Below are positions 3,938 to 14,639 of a DNA stretch of 39,871 nt, piece by piece. The notes beneath the pieces are model-generated. The model was not told where the DNA came from and searched no databases. It was given only the letters and a program-made list of their open reading frames with translations. Origin of the DNA: Ferrithrix thermotolerans DSM 19514 (GTDB lineage: Bacteria > Actinomycetota > Acidimicrobiia > Acidimicrobiales > CAIXPF01); contig CAMDQT010000029.1 of assembly GCA_945906305.1 (NCBI GenBank), positions 1 to 39,871 on the forward strand, in the 5' to 3' direction. The translations under genes were made by a program, and so were the position numbers. How positions within the stretch are numbered: the stretch's first letter is position 1; the number at the start of each line of letters is the position of its first letter.

Positions 3938-4837
3938 ATGAAGATCCGTATCGGCTACGGCCTCGGGGTGAACAGCCTCACCAACGACGAGGAGCGATTC
4001 GGACACTTCGTCGATGAGCTCGAGCGGCTCCACTTCGATTCGCTGTGGGTCTCCGAGCGGATCACCGGACATTCCTGCGATCCGGTGGTCGCGATGGCGT
4101 TTTGTGCGGGCCGAACCCGCAAACTGAAGTTCGGCATGTCGGTCATGGTGTTGCCGGGCCGTAACCCGGTGCTCATCGCCAAACAACTGGCATCGCTCGA
4201 TCGAGTGTCCAGCGGCAGGATGCTGCCGGCCTTCGGGCTCGGTGCGCCGAACCTGGCCGAGTGGGGGGCGTTCGCGGTCCAGCGCAAGGAACGCGCACCG
4301 ATCTTCGACGAGGCGCTGCCCCTGCTTCGTCGGCTGTGGACCGAGGAGTCGGTGACCCACCATGGTCGGTTCTACGACTTCGAAGACATCACGGTCCTAC
4401 CCCGGCCCGTCCAGAGCCCGCCCGACGTCTGGCTCGGCGGCGCGGCGCCGTCTGAGTTGCGGCGCGTCGGAAGACTGGCCGACGGGTGGCTGCCGTCATT
4501 CACCACTCCCTCGGACATGGCCGAGGGTATGGCCACAGTCACCCGGGTCGCGACCGAGCACGACCGGGAAATCGACCCTGAGCACTTTGGCGTGCTCATC
4601 CCCTATGCCACCGGCAGTCTTCCCGATGCCTACGCCGCGGCCATGAAGGCCCGCCGACCGGACCTCGAGCCAAGCGACATCGTACCGAGCGGGTTAACCG
4701 CCATCCGGCAGAAGCTTCTCGACTTCATCGATGTCGGCGCCTCGAAATTCGTGCTCATCCCCGTCACCGAACCCGACGACTGGACGAGGGAGCTCGAGGG
4801 GTTGGCGGCGGAACTGCTGCCGATGCAAACGCGCTGA
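3938..4837 (+). CDS. LLM-class F420-dependent oxidoreductase
   Basis: A complete luciferase-like TIM-barrel protein of 299 residues. Family marks are FDSLWVSERI (near 40), LKFGMSVMVLPGRNPVLIAKQ (near 70-90), DRVSSGRMLPAFGLGAP (near 90-105) and the late WLGGAAPSELRRVGRLADGWLPS segment (near 170). The family uses reduced or oxidised F420 (sometimes FMN) as a hydride carrier; the substrate is not predictable. The ATG at 3938 is chosen because GAGGGTGG sits 8 bases upstream at 3923-3930. Longer in-frame starts begin with cysteine- and arginine-rich residues unlike the family. It is transcribed away from the SDR gene and ends at a hairpin. Confidence 0.9.
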   Translation: MKIRIGYGLGVNSLTNDEERFGHFVDELERLHFDSLWVSERITGHSCDPVVAMAFCAGRTRKLKFGMSVMVLPGRNPVLIAKQLASLDRVSSGRMLPAFGLGAPNLAEWGAFAVQRKERAPIFDEALPLLRRLWTEESVTHHGRFYDFEDITVLPRPVQSPPDVWLGGAAPSELRRVGRLADGWLPSFTTPSDMAEGMATVTRVATEHDREIDPEHFGVLIPYATGSLPDAYAAAMKARRPDLEPSDIVPSGLTAIRQKLLDFIDVGASKFVLIPVTEPDDWTRELEGLAAELLPMQTR

Positions 4838-5960: not shown

Positions 5961-7238
5961 ATGGCAGGCAGCGCCGACTACAACTTTGTGCCCGGAGTGG
6001 CAACGCCGCACGTCGTCGCGACCGAGGGCTCCGAACTCGTTCTGGCGAACGGTCGGCGAATCCTCGATGGCGGCGGCGGGGCCATTGTCACCAACATCGG
6101 CCATGGCCGCCCCGAAATTGCCGAGGTGGCGGCCCGAAGCACCTCCAGCGTGGACTACGTGATCCCGCCGTGGAACACGCCGCCTCGACAGGCCCTCGTT
6201 GATCGGCTGGTGGGCTCATGGCTACCCACGGGTCTGGACCGGGTGGCTTTGGTGTCCGGCGGATCAGAATCGGTGGAGGCAGCAATCCGACTCGCCCACG
6301 CCTATCAGGTGTGTAGTGGCGAACCCGATCGCTACAAGGTGATCGGCCGGTGGCCGTCTTACCATGGGGTGGGCATCGGCGGACTGTCCGCGGGCGGGCA
6401 CCGTGGCCGTCGGGCCGGTTTCGAGCGCCTGTTGCTCGATTTCCCCCATGTCGCCTGGGATGATCCCGACGCCTTGGAAGCCATGATCGAGGCCCAAGGT
6501 CCAGAAAATGTCGCGGCGTTCATCGCCGAGCCGATCATCGGAGCTGCGGCTGGGTGCCTGGTCCCGCCCGCGGATTACTTCCCGCGGGTCGAGGCGATCT
6601 GCCGCCGTTACGGGGTTCTGCTCATCATCGACGAGGTGATGACCGGGTTCGGGCGCACCGGACGCAACTTCGCCATCGAGCACTGGGGGGTGACTCCAGA
6701 CATCCTGGTGGGCGGCAAGGGCCTCAGCGGGGGGTATGCCCCCATGGGTGGGATCTACACCAAAACCACCGTCACCCAGGCCCTGGCGGACAAGGGCCAA
6801 GCCTTCATGTTCTTCACCTACGGCGCGCACTCCTCGGCCTGCGCCATCTCCGACCGAGTCCTGGAGATCCTCCAAGACGAAGACCTCGTAGCCCGCTGCG
6901 CCCGCATGGGCGGCGTGCTCCAAAGCCGGCTGCACGAGCGGTTCGCCAACCACCCCCACGTTTCGGAAGTGCGCGGGATGGGCCTGATGCTGGGCCTTGA
7001 GTTGGTGGCGGAACGAGATCCGCACCGCCAGTTTCCGGTCGAAGCGCACCTCGCCCAGACGGTGGTGCGCGAGGCATTGGAACGCGATGTCTGGGTGTAC
7101 CCGGCTGGCTCGGGAGACCCGGTGCACGATGCGGTCATGCTCGGGCCGCCCTTCACCATCACCGAAGCCGAGATCGACCGCCTTGTAGATGTCCTCGCGG
7201 CATCAATCGATGCCGCGGTGGCCAGTATCGGCCTCTGA
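5961..7238 (+). CDS. Class III PLP-dependent aminotransferase
   Basis: A 425-residue fold-type I enzyme of the class III family, which moves the amino group of omega-amino acids, diamines or amino ketones to an oxo acid. The PLP-binding aspartate is D224 in IIDEVMTGFGRTG and the Schiff-base lysine is K253 in VGGKGLSGGYAPMGG. The phosphate-binding GGSESVEAAIRLA lies at 100-112. Length and order fit the family. The start at 5961 is the first ATG after the divergent TetR gene. The tight divergence suggests induction by the TetR ligand, perhaps the substrate. It is convergent with the ferrochelatase gene. The exact substrate cannot be named. Confidence 0.92.
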   Translation: MAGSADYNFVPGVATPHVVATEGSELVLANGRRILDGGGGAIVTNIGHGRPEIAEVAARSTSSVDYVIPPWNTPPRQALVDRLVGSWLPTGLDRVALVSGGSESVEAAIRLAHAYQVCSGEPDRYKVIGRWPSYHGVGIGGLSAGGHRGRRAGFERLLLDFPHVAWDDPDALEAMIEAQGPENVAAFIAEPIIGAAAGCLVPPADYFPRVEAICRRYGVLLIIDEVMTGFGRTGRNFAIEHWGVTPDILVGGKGLSGGYAPMGGIYTKTTVTQALADKGQAFMFFTYGAHSSACAISDRVLEILQDEDLVARCARMGGVLQSRLHERFANHPHVSEVRGMGLMLGLELVAERDPHRQFPVEAHLAQTVVREALERDVWVYPAGSGDPVHDAVMLGPPFTITEAEIDRLVDVLAASIDAAVASIGL

Positions 7239-7259: not shown

Positions 7260-8327
7260 TCAAGCGTGGGGTACCGCTCCCGCAGGGCCTGCCGCGGGAC
7301 CGCCAAGCGGGCGCGGACAACACTCGGCGCGGCACGCATCGGGCCACACCCCCAGTGACGACAGGTTCAAGCGAAGCGGGCTGGCGTTGTGCCGCGCCGA
7401 GCGGCGTTCTTCCATCAACTCCACGATCATGGCGACGAATCGAGGATCGGTTCCCACCGTTGCCGCCCGTACCGTGCGGATACCCAACGAGGTGGCGAGC
7501 GGCAGCGCCACCATGTCGAGGTCGTACACCACCTCGACATGATCCGAGACAAATCCAATGGGCACGAGCACCACCTCGGTCACTCCCTGCGCGGCGAGCT
7601 CCGCCAAGCGGTCCCCGACATCAGGCGCGAGCCACGGCACCCGCGGCGGGCCACTACGACTCTGCCAAACGAGGTCCCATCCCAGCCGCGAGTCGACCCG
7701 TTCCACCACCAACTCGGCCGCGGCGCGCAGCTGCCGCTCATAATCACACGTTGCCGCCATGGAGGTGGGCAGTGAGTGGGCGCAGAACACCAAACGCGGT
7801 CCGACCGTGCCGCGAACTGCGTCCACCGCAGCCCTCACCCGGTCGGCCAACGGCTCGATGAAACCGGGATGGTCGAAGAACACCCGCAGTTTGTGCACCG
7901 ACGGCGCCGTCGGACCAACAGCGGTTCGGGCTCCTTCGATGTCCTCAAGGTATTGGCGACACCCCGAATAGGAGCTGAACGCCGAGGTCACGAAGGCGTA
8001 GGCGTCGGTGACGCCATCCGCCGCCATTTGCGCCATGGCGTCCTCAAGGTAGGGATGCCAATTGCGGTTCCCCCAATAGATGGGCAGGCTTGGTCGACCC
8101 ATCCGCCCGAGCTCGACGCGGATGGCCTCGATCAGGGCCCGCACCTGGTCGTTGATCGGGCTGCGACCGCCCAAGGACCGATAGTGCGACTCGACCTCGT
8201 CGAGTCGCCCCGGCGCCACGCCGCGGCCGCGGGTCACCTTCTCGAGGAACGGTCGTACCTCCGCTGGCTGCTCAGGACCACCGAAAGACACCACCAGCAA
8301 GGCTGAGGTCTCGCGTTTGGCTTGCAT
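7260..8327 (-). CDS. hemH: Ferrochelatase with [2Fe-2S]-type cysteines
   Basis: A 355-residue ferrochelatase, which inserts Fe2+ into a porphyrin at the end of haem synthesis. In actinobacteria the substrate is usually coproporphyrin III (the enzyme is then called CpfC). The catalytic histidine is H184 in FCAHSLP and the conserved acidic residue is E265 in VSDHVEVVYDLD. Four cysteines fit the cluster known in actinobacterial enzymes: C123 in SGCRQY, plus C332, C336 and C337 near the C-terminus. The C-terminal spacing (C-x3-C-C) differs from the C-x6-C-x-C I recall for the Mycobacterium enzyme. A purine tract (AGGAAAGGG) before the ATG at 8327 supports the start. About 18 residues rich in Gly, Pro and Ala follow the last cysteine. 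Confidence 0.95.
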   Translation of the reverse strand: MQAKRETSALLVVSFGGPEQPAEVRPFLEKVTRGRGVAPGRLDEVESHYRSLGGRSPINDQVRALIEAIRVELGRMGRPSLPIYWGNRNWHPYLEDAMAQMAADGVTDAYAFVTSAFSSYSGCRQYLEDIEGARTAVGPTAPSVHKLRVFFDHPGFIEPLADRVRAAVDAVRGTVGPRLVFCAHSLPTSMAATCDYERQLRAAAELVVERVDSRLGWDLVWQSRSGPPRVPWLAPDVGDRLAELAAQGVTEVVLVPIGFVSDHVEVVYDLDMVALPLATSLGIRTVRAATVGTDPRFVAMIVELMEERRSARHNASPLRLNLSSLGVWPDACRAECCPRPLGGPAAGPAGAVPHA

Positions 8328-8627
8328 GAACGCCCTTTCCTAAACGGCTCCAGCCCCTGACCCGGCCCCGCGATGCCCGCCAGGTCACCGCGGCGAGCAC
8401 CGACTGGCGTTCAATCCATCGGCCCGCGCTGACGATAACGCTCCAGACGGACACGTCTGGACCCGACCGACCCGTCGACGCCTATCCCGCGGTGCCAAAC
8501 GTCTCCCGGAGGCCACCCGTGAGCGAAGCCACTACCGGTAGGTGCATCATTCGGCGTAGACAACGTTGCCTCGGCCGGCACTGCGAACCGAGGGAACATT
8601 CCAGCGTGACGCAAGAAGGAGGAGCCC
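8328..8627. other. Gene-free 300-base spacer between divergent genes
   Basis: This stretch lies between the ferrochelatase start and the membrane-protein start, so it should hold both promoters. I see no convincing coding frame in it. The one structured element is the inverted repeat at 8443-8460. The strong ribosome site AAGGAGGAG for the next gene lies at its right end. Confidence 0.6.
8443..8460. promoter_or_regulatory. Perfect 7-bp inverted repeat, possible operator
   Basis: CCAGACGgacaCGTCTGG is a perfect inverted repeat with seven-base arms and a four-base centre, in the middle of the 300-base spacer upstream of both hemH and the membrane protein gene. It could be a regulator site or an RNA hairpin. 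No T-run follows and it is not at a gene end, so an operator is slightly favoured. Confidence 0.35.
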
Positions 8628-9803
8628 ATGATCGCCAGTCGCCTGCTCAGCCGCTTCCTCATCACGATCGCCATGTTCACTGGCACCCTCGCATGGTCGG
8701 CCTTCACCTTGCAGCGGACGCTGTTCGACACCGGTCGCACCGATGCGGTTGTGGAGCACATTCTCGACAACGGGCTGGTGCACCGGGCGATGTTGCAGGC
8801 GCTGGTCAAGGCCACTGAAGCCGCGCTCCCCGAGCAGATCCGAGCCGAGGTCTCCTTGCCCGAACTCACCTCGATGGCCAGTGGTGCGATCGAGAACGAG
8901 GACGTGCGCTCCGCCATCGAGAATGCGGTGGTCGACAGCCATCGCTACATCATCGGCGAGTCGTCCGAACCGCCGGTGCTCGACACGACGGTACTCAGCG
9001 AGGTGGTGCGCCAGCAGTTCGCCACCATCCGCCCCGACCTCGCCACCGTGGTGCCCGAGATCGGTCCGATCACCATCGAGCTTCCCTCCACTGGGCTGCG
9101 GCCGGTTAAGGCCGCCAATGACTTCACTGCCTCGCTCGGCCCCATGCTTGGAATCATCGCCCTGCTCGGCGCGGCAGGCGGATTGGCCATCAGCCAAAAC
9201 CGGCCCGCCACCCTGATCAGGATCGGATTCTGGGCCGTCTCGCTTGGGGCCATGTGGATCATGCTGCGCTACGCGCTGCCAGCGGCCAGCGCGGCCGTGC
9301 TGGGCGAGCGAGGGGTGATGGTCACCGGGCTCACGACCGCGGCTACCTCGTCAATGGCGACACCGGGCACGCTCATGTTCGGCGCCGGCATCGCGTTGAT
9401 TACTGCCGGCTATTTCCTCCGCGTCGTTTCCCAGCCTGGCCGAGAGCCCGCGACCCCGCCCCGCGGCCAGGCCATCAACCCGCAATATGGCACCACCCGT
9501 CCCCGGGGTGAAAGCCCCCGACGCAGCGGTGCCAACCCGGCGCCCGCTGCTGCGCCGCGGCGCCCTGAGACGCGCAGCACGATCCCCGACGACCCCGGTA
9601 CCTACGCACCGCGCCAACCCCAACGCGCGCCGAGCGGCCCAACATTCGCCTCGCCGGGGACCCACCGCGACCCGCTCGGGCCGCAGACCCCGCCGCTGAC
9701 CCGGCCCCCTACGATCCCGGGCGCCAATCAGAGGAGCTCGACCGGGCGGCGCTGGATCGAAGGGGTGGGCTACGTCGAGGACGAGACCGACCACCCCGCC
9801 TGA
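8628..9803 (+). CDS. Unknown membrane protein with Pro/Arg-rich tail
   Basis: A 391-residue protein that I do not recognise. It begins with a membrane segment or signal anchor (about 8-28), then has a roughly 140-residue extracytoplasmic-looking region with conserved-looking acidic helices (LPEQIRAEVSLPELTSMASG). Three more hydrophobic segments follow at about 170-188, 196-214 and 245-264. The last 120 residues are a low-complexity, proline-, arginine- and threonine-rich tail, probably cytoplasmic and disordered, ending in GRRWIEGVGYVEDETD. AAGGAGGAG sits 6 bases before the ATG, a near-ideal ribosome site. The spacing to the formate dehydrogenase gene is 100 bases on the same strand, so some read-through is possible, but nothing links the functions. 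Confidence 0.75.
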   Translation: MIASRLLSRFLITIAMFTGTLAWSAFTLQRTLFDTGRTDAVVEHILDNGLVHRAMLQALVKATEAALPEQIRAEVSLPELTSMASGAIENEDVRSAIENAVVDSHRYIIGESSEPPVLDTTVLSEVVRQQFATIRPDLATVVPEIGPITIELPSTGLRPVKAANDFTASLGPMLGIIALLGAAGGLAISQNRPATLIRIGFWAVSLGAMWIMLRYALPAASAAVLGERGVMVTGLTTAATSSMATPGTLMFGAGIALITAGYFLRVVSQPGREPATPPRGQAINPQYGTTRPRGESPRRSGANPAPAAAPRRPETRSTIPDDPGTYAPRQPQRAPSGPTFASPGTHRDPLGPQTPPLTRPPTIPGANQRSSTGRRWIEGVGYVEDETDHPA

Positions 9804-9903
9804 GGACCGGCGCTATTCTGTTTGGCTCACCCCCATCGATTACCTCCGCTATGGTCCCGGCAACGTCGGTGTGCGGCGTAGCCGCCCATTCTGGAGAGCC
9901 GCA

Positions 9904-11892
9904 ATGACCACGTTTACCAACGCCTCCACCAGCCCGCGCCGTGCCCGCAGTCAGACCCGGGCCACCACGGCCTATGAGCGGCTCAGCACCCCACTCGTGC
10001 GTGAGCGCGGGGCCCTGCGCCCCGCCAGCTGGGACGAGGCCCTCGATCGGGCCGCCCAGGGTTTCCAGACCGTCATCGACCGGCTCGGCCCCGATGCGGT
10101 CGGCCTGTTCTCGTGCTCCAAAGCCACCAACGAGATGAACTACATCGCGCAGAAATTCATGCGCGTGGCGGTGGGGACGAACAACATCGATTCTTGCAAC
10201 CGCACTTGACACGCCCCATCCGTCGCCGGTCTGGCGACAGTGTTCGGCGCCGGTGGAGGCACCTCCTCCTATCAGGAGGTCGTGGAATCCGACCTGATCG
10301 TCATGTGGGGCTCCAACGCCCGCAACGCGCACCCGATCTTCTTCCAGCACGTGCTGCGCGCCGTGCGACGCAACGCCAAGCTCTACGTGGTGGACCCACG
10401 GCGCACCGAGACCGCTCAGTGGGCCGACCTGTGGCTGGGCCCGGAGGTCGGCACCGACATCGCACTGGCGAACACCATGGCCCGCGTCATCATCGAGCAG
10501 GACCTCGTCCACCACGAGTTCATCGAACGGGCCACGGTCGGCTTCGACACCTTTGCCGCCTCGGTGGCGGCCTGGACCCTCGAACGCGGCGAAGCAGTCA
10601 CCGGCGTACCGGCCTGGGCCATCGAGGAAATGGCCGTGGCCTATGCCCGGGCCGACCGAGCACAGATGTGTTGGACCCTGGGCATCACCGAACATCACAA
10701 CGGCACCGACAACGTGCTGGCCTTGATCAACCTGGCGTTGTTGTGTGGCCACGTCGGACGGTACGGCGCGGGGCTCAACCCGCTTCGGGGCCAAAACAAC
10801 GTGCAGGGCGGTGGTGACATGGGAGCCATTCCCAACCGGCTGCCCGGCTTCCAGGACATGGCCGATGCCGAGGTCCAGCAGCGTTTCACCGCCGCCTGGA
10901 ACCACCCGATACGCGCTCAGCACGGCCTGCATCTAGCCCAGATGTTCGAGGCGATGGACGAAGGCGGCCTCAAGGCGCTCTACGTGATCGGCGAAAACCC
11001 AGCCCAGTCCGAAGCCAACACCGCGCAGGCCGTGCAGCGCCTGGGCCGACTCGACCACCTGGTGGTTCAAGACATCGTTCTCACCCGCACTGCGGCCTTG
11101 GCCGATGTGGTGCTGCCCGCTACCGCCGCCTGGTGCGAAACCGAGGGGACTGTCACCAACAGCGAGCGCCGGGTACAGCGGGTGCGCCAGGCGGTCCAGC
11201 CGCCCGCGGGAGCCCGCGATGACATCGCCATCATCGCGGCCGTGTCGGAGCGACTTGGTCGATCACTCGGCGCCACCGACAGCGAAGCGGTTTGGAACGA
11301 GGTGCGGGCCTTGTCGCCCATGCACCGCGGCATGTCCTATGAACGACTCGAAGCACTCGGCGGCATCCAATGGCCCTGCTACCACGAAGATCGCCTGGAG
11401 CCATCCTTCCTGCACGGTCGGCTGTGGGCCACCGATCCGACCGAACGCGGCGCCAGAGCACCGTTCAGTATCGTGCAGGACGAATCGCCGGTAGATCAGC
11501 TCACTGCCGACTTCCCGCTGCGCCTCACTACTGGGCGCCGTCTGGACTCTTACAACAGCGGGGTGCAGAGCGGCGCGTTTTTGTCGCCGTTGCGACAGGG
11601 AGAAACGATCGACCTGTCTCCTCACGATGCAGAAACACTTGGGGTCACCGAAGGTGATCTCGTCCGGGTGGTGTCGCGGCGCGGGGCCCTCGTGGCGCCG
11701 GTACGTCTTGACCGGGGTCTGCGTAGCGGGCTGGCCTTCATGACCATGCACTTCCCAGACGAAGTTGCCACCAACGACTTGACCATCGACGCGCTCGACC
11801 CCAAGTCCGGAACGGCCGAGTTCAAGGCCACCGCCATCCGTATCGAGCGCCACGACACCGACCCTCCCGCCGCGCCTGCGGTGGATAACTGA
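9904..11892 (+). CDS. fdhA: Formate dehydrogenase catalytic subunit, selenoprotein, lacking the N-terminal Fe-S domain
   Basis: Read through the in-frame TGA at 10207-10209 as selenocysteine, the gene encodes 662 residues of the molybdopterin (bis-MGD) catalytic part of formate dehydrogenase, which oxidises formate to CO2. Sec102 is followed by H103 in the context SCNRT-U-HAPSVAGL. This aligns with E. coli FdhF around Sec140-His141. The conserved arginine is R295 in NPLRGQNNVQGGGDMG. Homology starts at PLVRERGALRPASWDEAL (30-47). Unusually, the [4Fe-4S] subdomain that normally begins the protein is absent; it is encoded at 13692-14639. The ATG at 9904 has GGAGAG upstream. The frame on both sides of the TGA is intact and conserved, and a SECIS hairpin follows, so this is not a broken gene. 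Confidence 0.93.
10210..10240 (+). promoter_or_regulatory. Bacterial SECIS element
   Basis: Directly after the TGA at 10207-10209, GTCGCC (10222-10227) pairs perfectly with GGCGAC (10233-10238) around the loop GGTCT (10228-10232). The E. coli fdhF SECIS, as I remember it, has the same GGUCU loop starting after 18 bases from the UGA, and here too there are exactly 18 bases. This is the SelB-binding type of hairpin that directs selenocysteine insertion. Confidence 0.88.
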
Positions 11893-11913
11893 ACGCGACG
11901 CATCGGACATCTC

Positions 11914-13695
11914 GTGGACCTGCACTTCACCGCGAAAGACCCGACGACGGCCGAGCGCGACGCGGTGGACGACGTGCTCGGGGCACCTCTCGACCGAACC
12001 GCCGTCGATCGCGCCGCCACCGGGCAGTATCTGCGGGCCGAACGCGGCGGAGCGGCCGTCCGCCGCCAACGCCACCTGCTGTTGCCTGCGCTGTTGGCCC
12101 TTGTCGATCGGGTCGGGTGGATCAGCCCCGAAGGGCTCGACTACATCGGCCTTCGTCTCGGCGTGGCGCCGGCCGAGGTCTACGGGGTGGCCAGCTTCTA
12201 CGCCCTGTTGGCACTCGAGCCCCGCCTCACCCGTTCAGTCGTCCATGTCTGTGTCGATTTGGCCTGCCGTATGGCCGGTGGCGTCGATGAGCAGCGACAC
12301 CGCTACGAGGACTCCGACACCCTCGTGGTCGACAGCGCTTGCCTCGGCCAATGCGATCGGGCCCCAGCCGCGATGGTCACCGAACCGGGTGCCCCCGCCC
12401 GCCACCGTGTCGACGCCCGCGAGGCCACCGTCATCGCCCAATGCGGCGAGGCCAGCCTCACGCTGCTGCGTCGAGTCGACGTCATCGCCCCTACCGACCT
12501 CGATGCGTACCGCGCCCATGGCGGCTACGTGGCGTTACGCCGAGCGTTGGACATCGGCCCGGCGGCGGTGCGGGCGGAGGTCGACGCCGCAGGGTTGGTG
12601 GGCCGCGGTGGGGCCGCGTTCCCGACCGGTCGCAAATGGGCCGCGGTCGCCGCCGCGCCGGGGCAGCCCCATCATCTGGTCTGCAACGCCGATGAGTCCG
12701 AACCAGGCACCTTCAAAGACCGGGTGATCCTCGAGGGTGACCCGTTCGCCGTCATCGAGGCCATGACCATCGCTGCGTATGCCACCGGCTGCGAGCACGG
12801 CTGGATCTACCTGCGGGGCGAGTATCCCCTGGCCCGAGCGCGTCTTGAGGAGGCCATGGCGCGAGCCCGCCGCGGCGGGCTGCTCGGTCCCAACGTGATG
12901 GGCCGTGGCTTCGCGTTCGATGTCGAAGTGTTCCGCGGCGCCGGGGCTTACATTTGTGGCGAGGAAACGGCGATCTTCAACTCGATCGAGGGCTATCGCG
13001 GCGAGCCCCGAACGAAGCCGCCGTTCCCCGTGGAGGTGGGCTTATTCGGCCGCCCCACGCTGGTTAACAACGTCGAGACACTCATCAACGTGCTCCCGAT
13101 CGTCGCCGACGGAGCAGCCGAATACCGACGGCTGGGCACGGTGGGCTCCCCGGGACCAAAATTGTTCTGTCTTTCGGGATCGGTGCGCAGCCCCGGCGTG
13201 TACGAGGTCCCCTTTGGCACCACGCTGGGCGGGCTGATCGAACGAGCGGGGGGTCTAACGGAGGGCCGGACGCTCCAAGCGGTGCTGATCGGTGGCGCAG
13301 CCGGGTCCTTCGTCGGCCCCGAGCAGCTTGATTTGCCCTTGACCTTCGAAGCCACCAGAGCCGCGGGCACCACAGTCGGGTCGGGCGTCGTGATGGTCAT
13401 CGACGATCAGGCCGACCTCGTCGACCTCGTGACGCGTATCGCCGCGTTCTTCCGCGACGAGTCATGCGGACAATGTGTGCCGTGCCGGGTCGGCACGGTG
13501 CGCCAGGAAGAAGCCATCCTCCGCCTCAGCGTCGGCAAGCGCCAGCGCCACGAACGCGCTCACGACCTTGAAATACTCCACGACGTTGGCCAAACCATGC
13601 GTGATGCCTCAATCTGCGGCTTGGGCCAAACCGCGTGGAACGCCATCGAGTCGGCCCTGACGCGCTTCAAACTTTTCCCGGAGGATGCGCCGTGA
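11914..13695 (+). CDS. fdhB: NuoE-NuoF fusion, NADH/diaphorase subunit of formate dehydrogenase
   Basis: A 593-residue fusion. Residues about 20-185 are a thioredoxin-fold NuoE-like [2Fe-2S] domain with C113, C118, C143 and C147. Residues about 190-590 are NuoF-like: GRGGAAFPTGRKW (230-242) and NADESEPGTFKDR (258-270) bind NADH and FMN, and C518, C521, C524 and C568 form the [4Fe-4S] site in SCGQCVPCRVGT and ICGLGQ. It would pass electrons from formate through FMN to NAD+, or in reverse. It lies between the two halves of the formate dehydrogenase large subunit, 21 bases after the catalytic gene and overlapping the next gene by four. The GTG at 11914 has only a weak ribosome site. The fused form is known in some NAD-dependent formate dehydrogenases and hydrogenases. 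Confidence 0.93.
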   Translation: MDLHFTAKDPTTAERDAVDDVLGAPLDRTAVDRAATGQYLRAERGGAAVRRQRHLLLPALLALVDRVGWISPEGLDYIGLRLGVAPAEVYGVASFYALLALEPRLTRSVVHVCVDLACRMAGGVDEQRHRYEDSDTLVVDSACLGQCDRAPAAMVTEPGAPARHRVDAREATVIAQCGEASLTLLRRVDVIAPTDLDAYRAHGGYVALRRALDIGPAAVRAEVDAAGLVGRGGAAFPTGRKWAAVAAAPGQPHHLVCNADESEPGTFKDRVILEGDPFAVIEAMTIAAYATGCEHGWIYLRGEYPLARARLEEAMARARRGGLLGPNVMGRGFAFDVEVFRGAGAYICGEETAIFNSIEGYRGEPRTKPPFPVEVGLFGRPTLVNNVETLINVLPIVADGAAEYRRLGTVGSPGPKLFCLSGSVRSPGVYEVPFGTTLGGLIERAGGLTEGRTLQAVLIGGAAGSFVGPEQLDLPLTFEATRAAGTTVGSGVVMVIDDQADLVDLVTRIAAFFRDESCGQCVPCRVGTVRQEEAILRLSVGKRQRHERAHDLEILHDVGQTMRDASICGLGQTAWNAIESALTRFKLFPEDAP

Positions 13696-14639
13696 CCAGC
13701 CAAGGCGACGAAGCGACACCTCGAAGCGTGCAACTCAGCGTCGATGGAACCGTCGTTACCGCCACCGAGGGCGACAGCCTCCTTGCGGTGTGCCGCGGGC
13801 TTGGCGTTGAGGTTCCGACGCTGTGCTATGGCGACACCCTCACCGCCCGCAATGCCTGCCGAATTTGCGTGGTCGAACTCGACGGCAACCGCACCCTGGT
13901 TCCGGCCTGTTCCCGCCCGGCGGAGGAGGGCCAAGTCGTGCACACCGACAGCGCCCGGGTCCGAACCAGCCGCAAGGTGGTCCTGGAGCTACTCGGCTCC
14001 TCGGTAGATCTGTCCCTCACCAAGGGTGTGGAAGCCTGGAACGAACGCTACGAGGCAGACCCCAGTCGCTTTGGCCCCTCGGCTGCGCCCGCCGGGATTG
14101 GCGAACGCGACCGCCGGGTCACCGGCGAGCATCACCACGCCGACCCGCTCACCGCGGCCACCGTCGCCCAGCCAGCCAAAATCGACAACCCCTTGTACGT
14201 ACGCGACTACAGCAAGTGCATTCTGTGCTTCAAGTGCGTCGATGCCTGCGGCGAGCAGTGGCAAAACACCTTCGCCATCAGCGCCGCCGGGCGGGGTTTC
14301 GACGCCCGCATCGCAACCGAGTTCGATGTCGCTTTGACCGATTCTGCCTGTGTCTACTGCGGGAACTGCATCGCGGTGTGCCCAACCGGGGCGCTGATGT
14401 CCACCGCCGAGTTCGACCTGCGAGGCGCAGGCAACTGGGCGCCCGAGCGCCAACACGAGACCACCACTGTGTGTTCGTACTGCGGGGTGGGGTGCAATCT
14501 CACCGTGCACGTACAGGACAACGAGATCGTCAACATCTCCAGCCCCTCCGACCACGACGTCACCCACGGCAATCTCTGCATCAAGGGCCGTTTCGGCTAT
14601 GTCAACGTGCAACCACCACGCCGGCGGGTGAAGGACTGA
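13692..14639 (+). CDS. Formate dehydrogenase Fe-S subunit carrying the detached MGD [4Fe-4S] subdomain
   Basis: A 315-residue protein equal to the missing N-terminal part of the large subunit. Residues 12-100 are a NuoG-like [2Fe-2S] ferredoxin domain (C45, C56, C59, C73). Residues 170-235 hold two [4Fe-4S] motifs (C176/179/182/186 and C220/223/226/230). Residues 255-305 are the Fe4S4 subdomain that normally starts the bis-MGD domain (C261, C264, C268 and C296 in LCIKGRFGY). The His-Cys [4Fe-4S] motif usually found after the ferredoxin domain is not present; the matching stretch (VDLSLTKGVEAW) has no cysteine. The GTG at 13692 overlaps the upstream stop as GTGA and has GGAGG at 13679-13683, so the start is firm. 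It must associate with the 9904-11892 product to complete the enzyme. Confidence 0.9.
   Translation: MTSQGDEATPRSVQLSVDGTVVTATEGDSLLAVCRGLGVEVPTLCYGDTLTARNACRICVVELDGNRTLVPACSRPAEEGQVVHTDSARVRTSRKVVLELLGSSVDLSLTKGVEAWNERYEADPSRFGPSAAPAGIGERDRRVTGEHHHADPLTAATVAQPAKIDNPLYVRDYSKCILCFKCVDACGEQWQNTFAISAAGRGFDARIATEFDVALTDSACVYCGNCIAVCPTGALMSTAEFDLRGAGNWAPERQHETTTVCSYCGVGCNLTVHVQDNEIVNISSPSDHDVTHGNLCIKGRFGYVNVQPPRRRVKD

Follow-up and report, generated by a model that had tools for sequence, protein, structure and literature searches.

A selenocysteine-containing formate dehydrogenase predicted from an acidimicrobial genome, with its alpha subunit divided between two genes

Formate dehydrogenases that contain selenocysteine (Sec) are the most widespread bacterial selenoproteins, and Sec-utilising Actinobacteria are known (PMC5029168), Streptomyces incarnatus being one described case (PMC4498112). 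Among the closest described systems is FDH3 of Actinomycetospora chiangmaiensis, which was found by proteomics and is composed of a Sec-containing FdhA3 of 640 aa, an FdhB3 of 614 aa and an FdhC3 of 316 aa; formate accumulates in this organism without selenite but hardly does so with selenite (PMC7176365). In the structure of Rhodobacter capsulatus FdsABGD, the route that connects bis-MGD with FMN comprises clusters A1, A2, A3, A5 and B6, while cluster A4, bound by His117, Cys121, Cys124 and Cys130 of FdsA, lies off this route at the dimer interface (PMC7171172).

The DNA analysed here, referred to as the window, is a stretch of 39,871 nucleotides (contig CAMDQT010000029.1). With a probability of about 96%, as judged from sequence comparison, the genes at 9904-14639 encode a cytoplasmic, NAD(+)-linked, Sec-containing formate dehydrogenase, in which UGA102 would be decoded by way of SelB and a downstream hairpin, and the proximal iron-sulfur cluster would be carried by FdhC rather than by the catalytic chain. 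The relevant features of the window are as follows.

9904..11892, + strand: fdhA, 662 residues with Sec102, predicted Mo/W-bis-MGD formate dehydrogenase catalytic subunit without an N-terminal Molybdop_Fe4S4 domain
10207..10209, + strand: UGA predicted to encode selenocysteine, the expected active-site metal ligand (codon comparison, 111 copies)
10222..10238, + strand: putative bSECIS-type hairpin, stem GUCGCC/GGCGAC, apical loop GGUCU, loop 18 nt past the UGA
11914..13695, + strand: fdhB, predicted diaphorase subunit, a NuoE-NuoF fusion (TIGR01959, E=1.6e-132)
13692..14639, + strand: fdhC, predicted to be the separately encoded N-terminal portion of an FdsA-type alpha chain (profile and structure-chain alignment)

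The product of fdhA matches the TIGR01591 Fdh-alpha profile (E=2.8e-191) from profile position 49 on only, and falls short of the curated cut-off of that family (637.1 versus 666.25 bits), probably because it lacks the N-terminal domain. A Pfam profile search of the fdhA ORF recovered the Molybdopterin and Molydop_binding domains and no Molybdop_Fe4S4, a domain found at the C-terminus of FdhC, where it follows a 2Fe-2S domain (Fer2_4) and two 4Fe-4S domains. A preliminary description of this DNA had proposed a Sec-containing formate dehydrogenase, an interpretation supported here, but had overlooked that the N-terminal Fe4S4 domain is missing from fdhA and supplied by a separate downstream gene. 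That gene begins at a GTG overlapping the stop of fdhB, whose product carries thioredoxin-like 2Fe-2S, FMN/NAD-binding Nuo51, SLBB and 4Fe-4S domains. Thus, the NuoF-like FMN/NAD-binding part and the NuoE-like diaphorase part of FdsABG-type enzymes are both present, fused as FdhB. The single alpha chain of that type, uniting NuoG-like clusters with Fe4S4 and molybdopterin domains, is absent, as is the dimer-interface cluster A4, whose ligand motif HxxxCxxCxxxxxC (one His and three Cys) was found in none of 61 FdhC proteins. The enzyme would therefore appear to work like FdsABG and yet to be a split variant, because its alpha chain is divided into FdhC and FdhA.

The assignment of FdhC as a partner of FdhA could be questioned, as FdhC might belong to another enzyme while FdhA works without a proximal Fe4S4 cluster. 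Some freshwater relatives have fdhA and fdhB separated by two genes of opposite orientation (locus L055), so that fdhA, fdhB and fdhC need not form one transcript. Such a separation of function is highly improbable, however, because FdhC and FdhA correspond to residues 24-301 and 303-932 of R. capsulatus FdsA (6tg9_A) and tile that chain with almost no gap. Furthermore, a motif search found no Fe4S4 motif in the FdhA open frame itself in any of the 111 copies, FdhC extends between a few and some tens of residues beyond C(I/V)KGRFG in all 61 proteins recovered, and most loci with sufficient flanking sequence have the fdhC motif on the same strand, about 4-6 kb further downstream.

With FdhA and FdhC taken as partners, the first electron hop would cross a subunit boundary, because the alpha chain is cut between the proximal Fe4S4 and the bis-MGD domains. 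It seems rather likely that NAD-linked formate dehydrogenases with this arrangement, with reversed gene order and loss of A4, make up a large family in actinobacteria; because A4 is lost, the members of this family may each function as one FdhABC unit instead of an FdsABGD-like dimer. Fused alpha subunits probably exist alongside split ones in the same class, because open frames of about 900-1100 aa are seen in more distant relatives there (41-45% identity). The split form represents a natural two-chain formate dehydrogenase alpha subunit.

A freshwater group of Acidimicrobiia-like metagenome-assembled genomes (MAGs) has fdhA set apart from fdhB-fdhC, with a spacing of about +6.3 kb. At L055, inspection by eye suggests that one of the two genes intervening between fdhA and fdhB (7964-9902, - strand) resembles a quinone reductase and the other a hydroxylase. 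Upstream, on the other strand, is an ORF resembling formate-tetrahydrofolate ligase. The product of fdhC at this locus (11774-12712) likewise lacks the His/Cys3 A4 ligand motif.

The TGA at 10207-10209 is codon 102 of the fdhA frame, which runs from the ATG at 9904 to the stop at 11890-11892, and is the sole interruption of that frame. It falls in the peptide IDSCNRT-U-HAPSVAGL, to either side of which the frame is conserved, as the preliminary description had it, and translation table 11 does break the gene at this codon, in agreement with the expectation that automatic annotation would split it. FdhA copies with the motif were collected from named bacterial and archaeal genomes and from genomes of the class (n=111, the window itself, locus L103, being counted once); the codon at the Sec position is TGA in 57 of these, TGC in 43 and TGT in 11, numbers that count loci and not independent events. 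The UGA is thus aligned with cysteine in homologues whose frame is conserved on both sides, as in Sec-containing formate dehydrogenases, and the TGA/TGC exchange that had been suggested as a check is seen, with TGC and TGT at exactly this codon. Copies with TGA come from Acidimicrobiia and some other Actinomycetota and those with a cysteine codon from Streptomyces, Nonomuraea and Nocardiopsis, and a single change of state accounts for the difference on a quick protein tree. The nearest named relatives are Acidimicrobiia MAGs, so the earlier guess of an actinobacterial host was right.

Across the genomes of the class, a TGA copy is present in 137 of 395 and selA in 256 of 395; the earlier description of selenoproteins in actinobacteria as patchy understates their frequency here. 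Where the TGA gene is present, selA accompanies it in 124 of 137 genomes, as compared to 132 of 258 others (Fisher p 2.6e-16, relatedness ignored). The 13 TGA-gene genomes with no selA match include several incomplete MAGs, yet for two of them (G362 and G292) completeness is put at 96%. A selA search of five genomes reached through the loci was also mixed, and the presence of selA is no strict predictor of the codon, because selA is found in Amycolatopsis xylanica, which has a Cys copy (L031), and was not found in a MAG whose copy has TGA (L093). Selenoprotein formate dehydrogenases are common in this actinobacterial class, in which routine gene prediction cuts their gene in two at the UGA.

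In genus g89 of family f34, many genomes of small size (about 0.7-1.1 Mb, G005 among them) carry selA and are absent from the FdhA matches listed at E <= 1e-60, so that Sec probably serves other proteins there. Some class relatives (G239, G317, G160, G246 and others) have two to four TGA, or a TAG, inside the matched FdhA stretch, which may reflect run-off of the alignment beyond the true stop or genuine additional stops.

The bacterial SECIS (bSECIS) consensus calls for a G at loop position 1 or 2, and the stem of the E. coli fdhF element contains a bulged U. Directly 3' of the UGA in the window is the perfect six-pair hairpin previously noted, in which GTCGCC (10222-10227) pairs with GGCGAC (10233-10238) around the loop GGTCT (10228-10232), with G in the first two positions. 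The fdhF-like distance of 18 bases that had been claimed for the hairpin is correct for the loop, GGTCT likewise lying 18 nt past the UGA in E. coli fdhF (a 48-nt sequence that matched 5368 of 5426 E. coli genomes), but not for the stem, which begins at 12 nt. Taken alone, the hairpin is weak evidence. Its fold z-score is -0.59 (42 nt), no significant z-score was obtained with or without flanks, and longer stretches favour a different fold, while random synonymous recoding of the same peptide yields the stem in 23% of draws and the stem with the loop in 3%. No RNA family was found in the window at the Rfam gathering threshold, leaving the hairpin without the backing of a curated model, and conservation in relatives was therefore used as the test.

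By this measure the hairpin exceeds chance, because it is kept in relatives with TGA; it is degenerate in most relatives with Cys. The loop GGTCT is present in 57 of 57 TGA copies and 4 of 54 Cys copies, and offsets 17/29, the third stem pair, are paired in 57 of 57 (35 C-G, 22 G-C) and 17 of 54, respectively. The two bases of this pair switch in step between C-G and G-C among TGA copies, silently, because both are third codon positions (GTC/GTG for Val, GCG/GCC for Ala). Across 25 distinct TGA sequences every one of the 150 pair cells holds a standard pair, with a covariation score of 0.330, as compared to 0.205 +/- 0.019 for shuffled alignments and at most 0.180 for slid partners; when the set is widened to 47 distinct sequences, two copies (L124 and L127) lack one or two of the outer pairs. 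Once relatedness is counted the silent switch is suggestive and not significant, because the tree implies about 3 independent changes, of which 2 are on well-supported branches. Covariation thus adds good but not overwhelming support beyond the conservation of the loop.

Both states of the codon occur in tandem in Actinoallomurus iriomotensis (L033), where a TGA copy with the SECIS hairpin (Sec codon at 4218) is followed by a TGC copy without it (Cys codon at 6241), the two being 80.9% identical and preceding one fdhB and one fdhC. This genome has selA. Among seven other Actinoallomurus genomes, one has a single fdhA copy with no internal stop and six have none at E <= 1e-180. The tandem arrangement possibly provides a selenium-dependent choice between two catalytic subunits, and the pair is a natural comparison of both amino acids at the same site in one locus.

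The assembly that contains the window (3.10 Mb, 52 contigs, 97.9% complete) holds the genes required for a Sec-containing enzyme, selA, selB, selC and selD, all four of which the preliminary description had predicted for this host (C6 and C41 are contigs of the assembly).

C6:25066-25157: tRNA-Sec gene, anticodon UCA (66.9 bits, cut-off 47)
C6:36145-37416: selA (388.9 bits, above cut-off)
C6:38716-39771: selB (279.4 bits, above cut-off)
C41:9604-10557: selD (343.3 bits, above cut-off)

The selD gene has an in-frame TGA of its own, in HGAG-U-ACKLGP (L022 10527, equivalent to G000 C41, - strand), and would itself be a selenoprotein gene, SelD being a known selenoprotein family (PMC5029168). An FdhD-type sulfurtransferase, a maturation protein, is encoded in the same assembly, and only one FdhA relative is found in this genome at E <= 1e-60. 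Because the genome has the complete Sec machinery and the RNA signal is kept in relatives, the UGA of fdhA is almost certainly read as selenocysteine.

An ordinary stop, making fdhA a pseudogene, or a sequencing error at a cysteine codon would account for the break in the frame under table 11, and TGA is indeed one base from TGC or TGT. Either is very improbable, however, given that fdhA has an in-frame TGA in 137 genomes of the class, that the frame is kept on both sides of the same codon in all 57 TGA copies read, that sel genes reside in the same assembly, and that every TGA copy has GGTCT as its loop while few Cys copies do. Both were rejected because many independent assemblies share the codon and an intact downstream frame, the opposite of the decayed downstream sequence that had been named as evidence against Sec. 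That UGA specifies another amino acid in this lineage (Trp or Gly, or else Cys through a variant tRNA) would fit with a codon that is clearly read through and with Cys as the residue in other relatives, but has next to no chance of being right and was rejected, as a canonical tRNA-Sec(UCA) exists together with SelA, SelB and SelD, fdhA, fdhB and fdhC themselves all end in TGA, and in-frame TGA was seen in the present analysis only in the known Sec families FdhA and SelD.

With Sec at position 102, a ribosome reaching the UGA would meet SelB with Sec-tRNA(Sec) bound to the GGUCU hairpin just downstream, and Sec would be inserted without termination. The Sec residue is predicted to coordinate the Mo (or W) of bis-MGD. 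Formate would be oxidized to CO2, with electrons passing to the proximal [4Fe-4S] cluster on FdhC and then, by way of the ferredoxin and 2Fe-2S clusters of FdhC, to the 4Fe-4S cluster of FdhB, FMN and finally NAD(+).

A literature search combining Acidimicrobiia with formate dehydrogenase and selenocysteine or with formate oxidation found nothing, and in a search on split formate dehydrogenase alpha subunits no description of this split was recognised; the division of the alpha chain may be undescribed so far, although absence from the literature searched is weak evidence. The enzyme type itself is already known, because FDH3 of A. chiangmaiensis matches it in subunits, Sec-containing formate dehydrogenases are widespread and Sec-utilising Actinobacteria are known; the present gene is a further member, with an unusual alpha split.

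Likened by description and sizes, FDH3 has three subunits nearly equal in size to those of the window (662, 593 and 315 residues for FdhA, FdhB and FdhC), Sec in a short FdhA, a cytoplasmic location, linkage to NAD, and sel genes in its genome; it comes from a different organism, and the available text does not discuss a detached Fe4S4 domain for it (PMC7176365). The Cys-type enzymes of Streptomyces, Nonomuraea and Nocardiopsis belong to the same split FdhA/FdhB/FdhC family (about 63-67% identity), but have TGC or TGT in place of TGA and a degraded hairpin. E. coli FdhF has Sec at the same position and a GGUCU loop 18 nt past the UGA; unlike the enzyme predicted here, it has its own N-terminal Fe4S4 domain and is partnered with a hydrogenase rather than a NuoEF-like subunit. 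All cofactor domains on the bis-MGD to FMN path of R. capsulatus FdsABGD (6tg9) have counterparts here, those of A1, A2, A3 and A5 on FdhC and that of B6 on FdhB. FdsA is one chain with Cys386, however, whereas here there are two chains, a reversed gene order and Sec; the counterparts of FdsB and FdsG are fused as FdhB, and the A4 ligand motif is missing from FdhC.
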